Shown: positions 20,836 through 30,928 of the stretch, piece after piece
Layout of the letters: every line of letters begins with the position of its first letter
How positions within the stretch are numbered: the first letter of the stretch is position 1
From: a virus
Strand: one strand, 5' to 3'
DNA length: 46,581 nt
Virus record (IMG/VR): IMGVR_UViG_3300035698_007270
Span: 1-46,581 of that record
Program-made: the position numbers and the translations under genes
Notes under the pieces: model-generated
What the model was told of the DNA's origin: nothing
Database searches by the model: none
The model's input: only the letters and a program-made list of their open reading frames with translations

Positions 20836-20878
20836 AATTTATCTCCTTCCAGTGACAATCGACCACCCCTCAAGATGG

Positions 20879-20906
20879 AAGCTGCCCCGTGGGATCGAAC
20901 CACGGC
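20879..20906 (-). other. tRNA 3'-end remnant (T-arm and acceptor half)
   Basis: On the minus strand a 6-bp stem (CCGTGG and CCACGG) closes the loop TTCGATC, a perfect tRNA T-arm. It is followed by GGCAGCTTCCA, which looks like an acceptor 3' strand. The matching 5' acceptor strand, D-arm and anticodon arm are absent in the preceding bases, which belong to the endonuclease gene. It is therefore a tRNA remnant rather than a tRNA gene, sitting directly after a homing-type endonuclease. Confidence 0.45.
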
Positions 20907-20918
20907 TTACACGTAAAA

Positions 20919-21827
20919 TTATTCGGCTTCGCTCGAAGCGTGTGTCTTTAAATATTGTATTGCGCTTTGTAGGTTTTCGGGGGAGTCCTGTAAGTTGCCT
21001 ATCCCACGGTTACAGTTACCGCATAAAAGACCCCGTATTTTACCAGTCGAATGGTCGTGATCTACATCAAATCTCTTGGCCATCCCATTATCCATATCTT
21101 CGACTCTTTTCCCACATATCGCGCAACAAAAGTTTTGGTATTCAAGCATCCTGTTGTAATCATCAATCGTAATCCCGAAATGTCGTTTCAAATCTGCATT
21201 AGTTCTCATTTCTGGGTTGATCACATCTCTATGCTTTGCATAACAAGCGCCACACATCTTTTTTGCATGGATCGGTTTTTTCCCACATACGGTACATAAC
21301 TTTGTCCCTTTAATGAGCCTAGTCCGGTTAGTGTGACCATGCCTTTTCTTTCTCGCAAAGCATTTCCTACAAAATCCTTGTGCTTTTATTGGTTTTACTT
21401 CGCCACACCCTCTACATTTTTTCGTCTTGCTTTCCTCTAATGACAAAGCATAGCACTTATTGCACAACCCTTTCGCCATCAGTTTTTTAAACTTTTTGCA
21501 ATTAGAGCATTCACCATGCCCAAGATTAAGTAGCCGTCCCTTCCCATAACAAACCTTACACAGACCTTTTGCATGGACAGGATATCGCTCACACTTAGAG
21601 CAAAGGTTGGCTCCTTTCTTAGGGCGTTCTCTATGTGTGGGATCACCATACCGAAGGAAAGCCATATAACACGCTGAACAATACCCTTTTGCTTTTAGAG
21701 GCTTACGTTCATTGCATCCACCACATATAGCGACAGACCTACGTGCTAAATCAACGCTATAGCACTGACCGCACATCCCTTTTGCTACAATTTTCGTTAC
21801 TTCCGATCCGCATTGAACGCATTCCAT
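20919..21827 (-). CDS. Endonuclease VII-type homing endonuclease with six zinc knuckles, 302 aa
   Basis: Residues 1-215 hold six tandem C-x2-C...AKG-x-C-x2-C-Y knuckles (for example ICGGCNERKPLKAKGYCSACY and LCTVCGKKPIHAKKMCGACY), which would bind DNA. The C-terminal 90 residues form an endonuclease VII catalytic domain: CCAICGKR, the DVDHDHSTGKIRGLLC catalytic core and CNRGIGNL. Free-standing enzymes of this type spread by homing. It has its own promoter and a strong ribosome binding site (AGGGGGTG), and lies directly downstream of the intron-containing capsid gene. The tRNA remnant at its 3' end may mark a past insertion site. Confidence 0.8.
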   Translation of the reverse strand: MECVQCGSEVTKIVAKGMCGQCYSVDLARRSVAICGGCNERKPLKAKGYCSACYMAFLRYGDPTHRERPKKGANLCSKCERYPVHAKGLCKVCYGKGRLLNLGHGECSNCKKFKKLMAKGLCNKCYALSLEESKTKKCRGCGEVKPIKAQGFCRKCFARKKRHGHTNRTRLIKGTKLCTVCGKKPIHAKKMCGACYAKHRDVINPEMRTNADLKRHFGITIDDYNRMLEYQNFCCAICGKRVEDMDNGMAKRFDVDHDHSTGKIRGLLCGNCNRGIGNLQDSPENLQSAIQYLKTHASSEAE

Positions 21828-21981: not shown

Positions 21982-23159
21982 CTACGCTCCTGGGCTCCCG
22001 AAGATGCCCCTGACGTCACTCGATCCGACTGAATATCTACAACTGGCTCGAAATTTCGCGTTCTCGGTATCGAAATCATTATCTGTGGCGAACGAGTCAC
22101 CACGACGCTCAAACATCTTCATCCCGTGCGGCGCATCGGTCTTGATAAACCAAGCATCCGTATCGGTCAGGAAGTGATTCACAACGATGTTCGGGATGCG
22201 GCCCAAGGTACGGATCGCATTCGTGTCGTTATTCGCCGTTCCACTCTGGAGGGTGGATTTCAGGATACGGACAGCATCGTACTCCAGCGCAGGTGGTATG
22301 ATCAGGGTCTTTGGGAGCACCTTGATAAGCATTCCACGGTCATTCTTGAACGCTGCAATATCGATACATGCCTGTTCCAGGGACGCCTCTGACAGATCAG
22401 CCGCAGTATCCAGCTCGTTCCGCCATGTACCACCAGACTTATTCAGGTGCAGCTCAGAGCAAAGCTCCAGGCCGTCACCGTAGGTGTATGAGTCGTTGAA
22501 CGCCCGGTTAAGGACATTCGCACTCACGGTCTCCTTGGTGTTCCTCATGGAGAAAGCCAAAGCCTGCGCCCGTTTCATCCCGATCTCTGCGTATTGATTA
22601 TCCTCGTACATTTCACGGGTGATTATGAAACCCAAACCGTAAGTGATATGGGTGTATCGGGTTATAAAACCCTGCTCCATATCGTCATAACTAATTGAAT
22701 TTCCTTCAGTTTTTATCGAAGCCTGACCGAACCCGGTCACTCCCACATCTTCCTCGAACGCTTTGGTGGACTTGGATTTATCGAAAATCTGAGGCCACTC
22801 TGGGGTGTACTCCTTATACGTCTTTCCATACCCGTTTATGTTCAAGTGAAATCGCTAATTCCACCCCGTTCCGTTAGGAACCGCTGCATGTTTCCATGCA
22901 GACCAGACCATATCTTCATCCTGTTACCAGGATGCTCCCCATTTCCACCCGCTTGGGTGTACTTCCTTTCGGAATGGTCGTTGAAGGTTCTCCATTTTCT
23001 ATAGAGCTTCCCTGCTGATTGTCTTCGGCGTTTCCCCGGTCAGAGTTTCCAGCAGTTAAAGGAGTTATCTCGACGCCATTACTGGCGTAAGGCCCAAGTA
23101 GTTTAGGCGTTAATTCCAGGCCACAATGCTTTTGCAAAGGAGCCGGTAGTAATAGTCAT
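21982..23159 (-). CDS. Major capsid protein, interrupted by a group I intron (301 aa when spliced)
   Basis: Exon 1 (23159-23105) encodes MTITTGSFAKALWPGINA plus the first base of a codon and follows an AAGGAG site. Exon 2 (22832-21982) begins GG, completing TGG (Trp), then YGKTYKEY. The joined junction reads LWPGINAWYGKTYKEY, the pattern I know from capsid proteins of this type (LWPGVNAWYG...). Downstream are STKAFEEDVGVTGFGQ and RYTHITYGLGFIITREMYED, and a Gly/Asp-rich C-terminus. Without splicing the gene stops after 18 codons at an in-frame TAA; a naive call would start at the TTG at 22845. It sits in the expected place after decoration-like and scaffold genes. Confidence 0.85.
22833..23104 (-). 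ncRNA. Group I intron (probably subgroup IA) in the capsid gene
   Basis: The 5' splice site ends exon 1 in GCCU, whose last U pairs with G in an internal guide (P1: GCCU with GGGC). P2 is ACGCCA-GUAA-UGGCGU. P4 pairs CUGCUG with CAGCAG, beside the element AATCAGCAGGGAAG. P7 is formed by GACCAT and ATGGTC, the latter in AAGATATGGTC, a hallmark of group I cores. P7.1 (TTCC-GAAA-GGAA) and P7.2 (CACCC-AAGC-GGGTG) point to subgroup IA. P8 is CATCCTG-GTAA-CAGGATG and P9 is CTGCATG-GAAA-CATGCAG. The intron ends in G before exon 2. It has no internal ORF worth keeping, so its mobility would depend on a nuclease in trans, plausibly the endonuclease VII-type gene next door. Confidence 0.85.
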
Positions 23160-28624: not shown

Positions 28625-30928
28625 TCAGTAACCTGTCATTTTATTGGGTTTACTTTTCGCGTATGATCTATCGTCGTACTCGTCAAAGTCGTTCCCGTAT
28701 TTATTGTCGTTCTCTACAGGCATTGCGTGTGTGAACGCCATGCTGTCCCCGACATCAGGAGAGGCCACGCCACGTCCCTTCGCGTCGGATTTCTTCTCAA
28801 GCTGTAATTTATCCCCAACAGCGTAGGTGTATTGGACGCTCGTAAGCTCCGCTATCAGTTCAGGATCGTTCGGAATGTCTCCACCAGCCTCAAGCCAGTC
28901 CTTCAGCTTGTCCCACATCTCGGCTCGTTTGTTCCGGTATCGTGGATTGTCAGGCTTCGACCCAGAATTTATCCCAATAACGTCCTTGAACCCTAGCGAG
29001 TACAGGCGATCAACGACCCCGGCACCAACGCCAACCACGTCCACGAACGTCATCCTGGCACGGTACTGGACTATCTTGTGGGCCACCCTGTCGGTGAACG
29101 CCATCAAATCAAGGTGTTTGAATTTCTTAATCTCTAAGGTATGAAGGCCCTGGCGGACGTAAATAACGCTCTTGTCGTCCCCGAATCGGGCCACATCCAC
29201 TCCTATTACTATAGGTGCCCATGAATATGTGTTCGGCAGGTTTACCCGTTTTGTGGCTTTATCAACCAGCTCCGTTGGGATTAAAGCGTTCTCAATCGCG
29301 GCCTCAAAATCGCAATTATGGACAGTTCTTCCGTTGATAATGTATGAATTGTCATGTTGGATAGCGAGATTGTAGACTGTCCCTCTGTAGACACGACGTG
29401 TTATTTTCCTGACCTTCACGCCAACGCCATGTTTCCCAGGGAATGTTTTTCTCACTTTGAATTTATCTTTTTGTTTCCACTTCGTGTTGATACGCACTTC
29501 GTATTTATCTTGGGTATTAATCGGACGACCTTGGAATTCAGATGGGCCACCTTTCGTTCTAGTTATGCCCCCAATCCAACCTTTCATGCCAGAAAGCATT
29601 TGAACGTCATAAGCTAAGTCTCTGCTAACTGTAATGTAGGAATAAATATCTTCAAATTTACACCCATCTCCCGCCATTAAAACATCGAAAAAAAGGTCTT
29701 CATGCCCAGAAATAATGCTCCAAGGTATCCGTTTATGTTGTGCTAACTTTCCACAATTAGTGATTAAGAAGTCACTGAAAGAGCATGATTTTATATGGAA
29801 AGTCCTTGCTGTCCCTGTATCGCTTTCGTGGATTTTGAGGTTTAATTTGGTGCAACAGTCTCTTATCTGAGCCGCTTCGTCCGGTCTATTTAGCCCTATC
29901 GAAATACAAGCGGACGTCTTACCATTGCTCCCATCAGAAATGTACCAAGCGGCCAATATGACAATTTCTTCTGAAACAACCTTCCCACCATATTTGCGTC
30001 TTGGGCGCACAAGTAAATCACCCTTTGCTATTTTAGAGGCAGGCACCCACTTGTACGTTTGGTCTTCTTTGGTATAGACTCTGACAGGATGTTTGGGAGT
30101 CACCTCAACAGGTTTCGCATCCCCATTAGTGTATATCTGGACAAGACGACCTTTATACGGCCTCTGAAACGATTCTTTAACTTGGCGGAATCTACCAGAA
30201 TGACCGAGTACAATATCCCCGACACAAACATCCTCGATAGGGACTTGGCCATTATCAGTGTAAACCAATGAACCGGCAGGGCAACACTCGAACTCTTGTC
30301 TGTACTGGGCGTCGCTCATCGAACGTCGCGCGTCAGCTAATTCTTCCCTATCCACCAGCTTGGTCTCAGAAACCGGGTATCTTGCGGAAAACCATGTCTC
30401 GTCATGAACCGCCTGCATGTATAAATCATAAAATATATTTCGACTTCTGGGAGTCCCAATAAAGCAGCACCAGCCCTTACGATCAGCCAATAAAGGCCGG
30501 ACAACTTCCCCCCAAATCTCAGGACGGCACTGGGCTACCTCATCAATAACGCAACCATCCAGGTAAATTCCACGAAGAGCGTCAGGTCGATCAGCTCCAT
30601 AAAGTTTTATCCTCGCTTGATCCCCCGATACACTCGGGACTTTCACCCACAATTCACTTTCATTGGTCTTCGAGTTAGGTAAAGCCTTCGTGTAATACTT
30701 CAAATAATCCCATGCAATCTCTTTAGCTTGAGCGTAGTAAGGTGCTATATAGGCGAATCTAGGCCGTTGCTTGTCGCAATAAACAGCAGACTTAATCAGG
30801 TGATTAATCATGGCGACACTTTTCCCGAGACGCCTGTGAGCAACCACAACAGCAAAACGGTGAGCGTCCAAACCACGATGGATTTCGCCCTGAACAAACC
30901 TTGGTTTATATGGGATATTTACTTTCAC
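28625..30928 (-). CDS. Large terminase subunit, intein-containing, 767 aa before splicing (443 after)
   Basis: The N-extein (residues 1-214) carries the ATPase: AHRRLGKS (residues 30-37, Walker A variant), CVIDEVA (126-132, Walker B) and FIGTP (156-160). The C-extein (539-767) holds a RNase H-like nuclease with likely Asp ligands at 578 (VIGVDVA), 630 (MTFVDVV) and 728 (SPDVGDSM). Between them residues 215-538 form a complete intein. Splicing would join QEFE to CDFEAAI, a natural terminase sequence. The gene starts in an ATGA overlap and follows the small terminase by a cluster of tiny genes. Confidence 0.85.
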   Translation of the reverse strand: MKVNIPYKPRFVQGEIHRGLDAHRFAVVVAHRRLGKSVAMINHLIKSAVYCDKQRPRFAYIAPYYAQAKEIAWDYLKYYTKALPNSKTNESELWVKVPSVSGDQARIKLYGADRPDALRGIYLDGCVIDEVAQCRPEIWGEVVRPLLADRKGWCCFIGTPRSRNIFYDLYMQAVHDETWFSARYPVSETKLVDREELADARRSMSDAQYRQEFECCPAGSLVYTDNGQVPIEDVCVGDIVLGHSGRFRQVKESFQRPYKGRLVQIYTNGDAKPVEVTPKHPVRVYTKEDQTYKWVPASKIAKGDLLVRPRRKYGGKVVSEEIVILAAWYISDGSNGKTSACISIGLNRPDEAAQIRDCCTKLNLKIHESDTGTARTFHIKSCSFSDFLITNCGKLAQHKRIPWSIISGHEDLFFDVLMAGDGCKFEDIYSYITVSRDLAYDVQMLSGMKGWIGGITRTKGGPSEFQGRPINTQDKYEVRINTKWKQKDKFKVRKTFPGKHGVGVKVRKITRRVYRGTVYNLAIQHDNSYIINGRTVHNCDFEAAIENALIPTELVDKATKRVNLPNTYSWAPIVIGVDVARFGDDKSVIYVRQGLHTLEIKKFKHLDLMAFTDRVAHKIVQYRARMTFVDVVGVGAGVVDRLYSLGFKDVIGINSGSKPDNPRYRNKRAEMWDKLKDWLEAGGDIPNDPELIAELTSVQYTYAVGDKLQLEKKSDAKGRGVASPDVGDSMAFTHAMPVENDNKYGNDFDEYDDRSYAKSKPNKMTGY
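29315..30286 (-). other. Intein with LAGLIDADG homing endonuclease, 324 aa
   Basis: Begins CCPAGSLVY (block A, catalytic Cys first, Gly/Ser at usual positions) and has a block B (GDAKPVEVTPKHPV with T277 and H280 of the precursor). The middle carries two LAGLIDADG-like helices: ILAAWYISDGS (324-334) and FFDVLMAGDG (413-422), plus a KRIP stretch (399-402). The C-terminus reads VYNLAIQHDNSYIINGRTVHN, ending His-Asn before Cys539. All parts for protein splicing and DNA cleavage seem intact. The insertion sits just after the ATPase core, before the nuclease domain. Confidence 0.85.

Follow-up and report, generated by a model that had tools for sequence, protein, structure and literature searches.

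Where does the major capsid protein (MCP) of this virus begin, and what separates its start from the rest of its gene? In the window, the whole 46,581-base stretch of viral DNA that was analysed, a plain list of open reading frames (ORFs) gives MCP just as an ORF from an internal TTG (22845-21982). Upstream of it, an ATG at 23159, preceded by GGAG at 23170-23167, opens a frame that encodes MTITTGSFAKALWPGINA and is then ended by a UAA as codon 19, which is made of the final nucleotide of exon 1 and nucleotides 1-2 of the predicted intron. The capsid frame picks up again at 22832, after 272 nt, resulting in the following layout:

23105..23159, minus strand: MCP exon 1, 18 codons from the ATG plus the first nucleotide of a Trp codon; 5' splice site after 23105 (GCCU)
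22833..23104, minus strand: group I intron, 272 nt, terminal G at 22833 (RF00028, 82.9 bits; fold z -4.9)
21982..22832, minus strand: MCP exon 2, beginning with the GG of the Trp codon; stop codon included

Exon 2 matches the Pfam family PF25209 (Phage_capsid_4, 1e-13), with a weaker match to Mu gpT. Joining of the exons yields KALWPGINAWYGKTY, in register with intronless homologues, and MTITTGSFAKALWPGINAWYGKTYKEY as the predicted product at the splice junction, where the homologue of Alcaligenes phage QDWS535 is uninterrupted (FAKALWPGINAWYGKEY). The motif of the junction region is variable, one large group of homologues having KELEPGLNALFG instead. Excision of the predicted intron restores the frame and the residues of MCP in comparison with intronless homologues. 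The longest internal ATG frame of the intron has 25 codons, and a 73-aa TTG frame (23137-22916) runs across it. Judging from the sequence, the first 55 coding nt of MCP are very probably followed by a group I intron of 272 nt that lacks an endonuclease ORF and is predicted to splice. The sequence-only reading had described this split with the same coordinates and length, the stop after 18 codons and the later resumption of the frame, a junction that fits the capsid family, and a false TTG start if the intron is overlooked; the full-length match to the group I model, the register of the exons and the plain ORF list bear it out.

The Rfam group I model RF00028 matches 23114-22884 on the minus strand over its full length (model positions 1-253 of 253) with 82.9 bits (E=1e-19), 32.9 bits above the gathering threshold of 50. 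The sequence-only reading had named a strong match to this model as a check, and the one obtained is the sole gathering-level Rfam match in the 46,581-base record; a repeat scan was again above the cut-off. The predicted fold of strand 23114-22833 is more stable than its shuffles by 4.9 sd, and 0 of 200 shuffles equal it. Two helices define the ends of the fold and its catalytic centre:

23092..23108, minus strand: P1, exon GCCU (23108-23105) paired with intron GGGC (23095-23092), with U.G at the splice site
22906..22979, minus strand: P7, strands GACCAU (22979-22974) and AUGGUC (22911-22906), which flank P7.1, P7.2, the 3' strand of P3 and P8

P1 is just 4 bp long, and the intron ends in AACG, with its last nucleotide G at 22833. 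P1, P7, P8 and P9 are as had been claimed, and the P2, P4, P7.1 and P7.2 of the earlier reading were found along with P3, P5 and P6 in the model match or in a consensus fold of six introns (the window intron and the introns of L257, L280, L281, L290 and L269). The P3-P9 core with the P7 pseudoknot is present according to the model match, the consensus fold and a count of P7 pairing. The consensus fold holds 61 predicted pairs, and in 24 of them one or more of the six sequences have changed both bases while keeping the pair. P7, left out of this nested fold and scored separately, pairs in all 36 cells of the six-intron alignment, compared with 19-47% when slid by 1-3 columns, its sixth pair taking a column assigned to P7.1 in the nested fold. 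One P7 pair is C-G in the window and U-A in the other five introns, a double change that gives mild support, being matched on its own by 103 of 500 shuffles. Introns of subgroup IA carry P7.1 and P7.2 hairpins between the 5' strand of P7 and the 3' strand of P3. Hairpins UUCC/GGAA and CACCC/GGGUG at alignment columns 144-172 correspond to P7.1 and P7.2, and by this predicted fold the window intron follows the subgroup IA pattern. A possible P10, read by eye, would pair exon GGUA with intron UACU.

Upon folding, the intron guide GGGC would pair with exon GCCU and place the U.G at the 5' splice site, which would then be attacked by a guanosine bound in P7. The released exon 1 would attack after the terminal G at 22833, and ligation would then rebuild the Trp codon (U/GG), making MCP continuous. 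Ribosomes would be halted ahead of the ribozyme by the junction UAA, so that unspliced RNA would yield an 18-residue peptide only. The splicing steps are established group I chemistry, and we infer their course in MCP. In the excerpted text of one study, an in-frame stop behind the upstream exon may both hold ribosomes back and aid intron folding (PMC3984707), and the junction UAA of MCP fits this published view.

How often related capsid genes are interrupted was read from protein-similarity searches, which are blind to introns. They gave 187 loci (4 of 23 phage records, twice the best 80 IMG/VR loci, and 23 genome contigs), which represent 174 different exon-2 DNA sequences. If the insert stayed unspliced, translation of the capsid would begin at the internal TTG (22845), leaving exon 1 to encode a decoy peptide. 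An open frame from this TTG does exist, but no Shine-Dalgarno sequence is seen ahead of it, whereas a good one precedes 23159; in addition, the longer N-terminal reading frame is unbroken in 181 of the 187 loci and the insert itself matches the group I model. We regard translation from the TTG as highly improbable. Exon 2 aligns as a single piece of at least 255 residues in 186 of the 187 loci, the exception, L020, being cut; therefore no intron is seen further inside the gene among these loci. After four loci were set aside (L020 and L033, truncated where their contigs end, and L172 and L173, which duplicate the intron-bearing query used in the second search), an intron near the window site was found in 2 of the remaining 183 (171 distinct in DNA), L174 and L302.

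The intron had been called unusual. This holds for its frequency in the similarity loci, but not for its kind, since a phage capsid intron is already published and the present capsid family is repeatedly interrupted. Splicing has reportedly been seen in the capsid gene of Faustovirus, a eukaryotic virus. The single clear precedent from phages is mycobacteriophage LittleE, in which a major capsid intron was proven to splice by RT-PCR and N-terminal sequencing; the excerpted text gives group I as its most likely class and cites lactococcal phage Tuc2009 as well (PMC3706429). Similar to the window, LittleE has a phage major capsid gene in which exon 1 ends in U and the intron in G. Its intron is about 820 bp long with a reverse-strand endonuclease-like ORF, whereas that of the window is 272 nt and has none; its capsid is reported to be a distant relative of the HK97 capsid, and its splicing is experimentally shown, while that of the window is predicted (PMC3706429, same excerpt). 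In Jug phages, 2,513 group I introns occur in 136 of 139 genomes, and the capsid gene is not named as interrupted in the available excerpt. No report of introns in the capsid family of this MCP was found in the open-licence literature on introns with capsid or head topics. A phage major capsid intron as such is already known, and the cluster of sites found here in a short capsid stretch is the more interesting part.

Similarity searches and pattern scans together gave at least 10 distinct intron-bearing MCP genes, including that of the window. They are interrupted at five sites, counted here from the first nucleotide of the LWPG Trp codon, none of them more than 21 nt from the LWPGxNAW codons:

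site -2: L254 (GCC T/TA), 21 nt upstream of the window site
site -1: L174, L258, L267, L278
site +6: L302, L401, L419
site +11: L158
site +19: the window

The pattern scans search for capsid codons immediately preceded by the 3' core of a group I intron and cover the gene start only. The first gave 84 stretches, all tested, with two in MCP (L130 and L158, which share 99.5% identity across 4.2 kb). The second gave 49, with six in MCP: L259 (the same as L174), L254, L258, L296 (99.9% identical to L258), L267 and L278. The last two gave at least 120 each; among 224 new loci tested, four were in MCP: L474 has no intron, and L401, L419 and L397 (a 4.6 kb match to L302 at 100% identity) each have one. 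Two of the four matches of another scan, L170 and L171, are not located in this MCP. As a separate observation, L171 (reverse complement, about 1370-1700) has, in a terminase-like region, a group I core with an intein-like open frame behind it. L272 (about 1750-1834) has group I intron-like DNA after a scaffold-like ORF and before a frame resembling a different capsid-type protein.

All 10 MCP introns have a P1 of 4-5 bp with U.G, and all 10 rejoin to capsid N-termini containing WPG. Nine of them, in L158, L174, L254, L258, L267, L278, L302, L401 and L419, are alike: they are group I-type, lie in homologous MCPs no further than 21 nt from the same codons, are 783-863 nt long and hold a GIY-YIG-type ORF of 194-224 residues. 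The window intron differs from these nine by its 272 nt, the lack of a GIY-YIG ORF and its insertion site. Five ORFs were scanned and found to be GIY-YIG by Pfam (L258 barely above the cut-off), and those of L267, L302, L401 and L419 were assigned to this type by similarity, with 40-77% identity to the scanned ones. The ORFs form two identity groups, one at site -1 (61-77%) and one at sites -2, +6 and +11 (40-58%), with 26-41% between them. The L158 and L130 introns fall below the Rfam gathering threshold; an E-value search gave 41.3 bits for L174 and 39.0 bits for L158, in alignments that run partly through the ORF. On an MCP tree of 191 rows, eight of them intron-bearing (L401 and L419 were left out), intron presence requires seven changes, at least six of which are backed by well-supported branches. 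No clear clustering of introns appears on this tree, as seven changes compare with a shuffled mean of 7.9 and 45 of 500 shuffles are as low. The near-random scatter implies repeated gains or losses.

Without an ORF of its own, how could the window intron spread? Next to MCP, its stop followed after 154 nt by the start of the gene, lies

20919..21827, minus strand: free-standing Endonuclease VII-family gene, 302 aa (PF02945, 1.7e-23; C-terminal Endonuclease_7 domain)

The protein is 45% identical over 107 aa to F-CphI, with which its catalytic stretch VDHDH...R...C..CN aligns, a stretch that cannot tell homing enzymes from resolvases. An intron without an endonuclease ORF beside an adjoining free-standing endonuclease gene is the layout of collaborative homing pairs, in which the enzyme would act in trans to spread the intron. 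In the record of cyanophage S-PM2 (AJ630128), F-CphI likewise lies 66 nt after an intron-bearing gene, psbA. According to the excerpted report, F-CphI cuts the intronless psbA of another phage and the intron blocks cleavage (PMC6083498). S-PM2 differs from the window in its host gene, psbA in place of MCP; cleavage and protection are reported for it in that excerpt and are hypothetical for the window pair. By this analogy the Endonuclease VII gene is a candidate trans-acting helper of the window intron, a role to which we give somewhat less than an even chance. The intron might instead splice and be stranded, its own endonuclease lost or never present, the neighbour being an unrelated free-standing nuclease; we put this at about an even chance. 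It is favoured by the GIY-YIG-type ORF that nine of the 10 MCP introns have and the window intron lacks, and by three loci with Endonuclease VII-family genes directly after intronless MCPs, L226 (3368-4237), L242 (3362-3700) and L201 (3352-3729). The like arrangement in S-PM2 argues against it, as does the nearest MCP relative, L006, a single case, which lacks the intron and shows no Endonuclease VII match in the 1.65 kb of sequence available downstream of MCP, a region occupied by a different gene. Endonuclease VII-family sequence also occurs elsewhere near the intronless MCPs of L016 and L232. Genes of this family beside intronless MCPs indicate that adjacency does not require the intron. 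Among viral contigs, 11 stretches fit a search pattern for relatives of the Endonuclease VII protein and none was confirmed; in phage records, none of 1811 matches to the protein extends across more than 80% of its length.

Directly after the Endonuclease VII gene, 20873-20912 (minus strand) resembles the T-arm and acceptor 3' side of a tRNA; ARAGORN calls no tRNA anywhere in the window, nor in any of 31 related loci. Further along, 28625-30928 (minus strand) encodes the terminase large subunit with an intein (PF14890, 7e-10, residues 249-538) and terminase matches on both sides. Together with the MCP intron and the Endonuclease VII gene, this places an intein, an intron and a free-standing endonuclease among packaging and head genes.

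The window intron is a mobile element, and its closest relatives bear on where it came from. The best DNA matches among the compared loci are L283/L257 (74% over 221 nt) and L280 (76% over 184 nt). The short introns of L257/L283, L280, L281, L290 and L269 are 70-76% identical to it over 184-221 nt, and those of L257, L280, L281, L290 and L269 fold into the same core. They sit between other conserved genes, not in MCP; from a reading of the neighbours, these genes are probably tail-type. In phage records, 604 matches to the intron were obtained at E up to 0.01. Six were opened, of which four lie in or beside genes for DNA polymerase (phiTE), thymidylate synthase (AD45-P1), terminase (JEP1) and ribonucleotide reductase (BSTP3), and two beside unnamed genes. 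A local move within the capsid stretch, with a source such as the GCC T/TA site of L254, would agree with the identical P1 pairing (GCCU/GGGC) and codon phase of the L254 intron and with the next-best matches, the MCP introns of L302, L158 and L254 (73-80% over 108-157 nt, in the 3' part). However, two intron-core trees do not place the window with the MCP introns, and the short introns akin to L257 and the phiTE DNA polymerase intron are equally near; most branches of these trees are unsupported, one lacks L302, and the other is rough, with 5' pieces of L302 and L278 taken from inside ORFs. We consider a local move unlikely.

Capsid protein is needed in many copies per virion, and the capsid gene apparently tolerates a self-splicing intron, while a plain ORF list clips the N-terminus of MCP. 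Tentatively, and with a chance of clearly less than a half, we propose that the roughly 20 nt around the LWPGxNAW codons are a contested homing target, with at least five sites, two GIY-YIG groups and, in the window phage, a trans-acting Endonuclease VII enzyme, so that endonuclease classes would compete over overlapping sequence. If so, an essential, highly expressed gene would be an arena for competing endonuclease classes. The introns at -2, -1, +6, +11 and +19, with their two GIY-YIG groups and one Endonuclease VII neighbour, offer a natural set for the co-evolution of endonuclease target, guide and insertion site.
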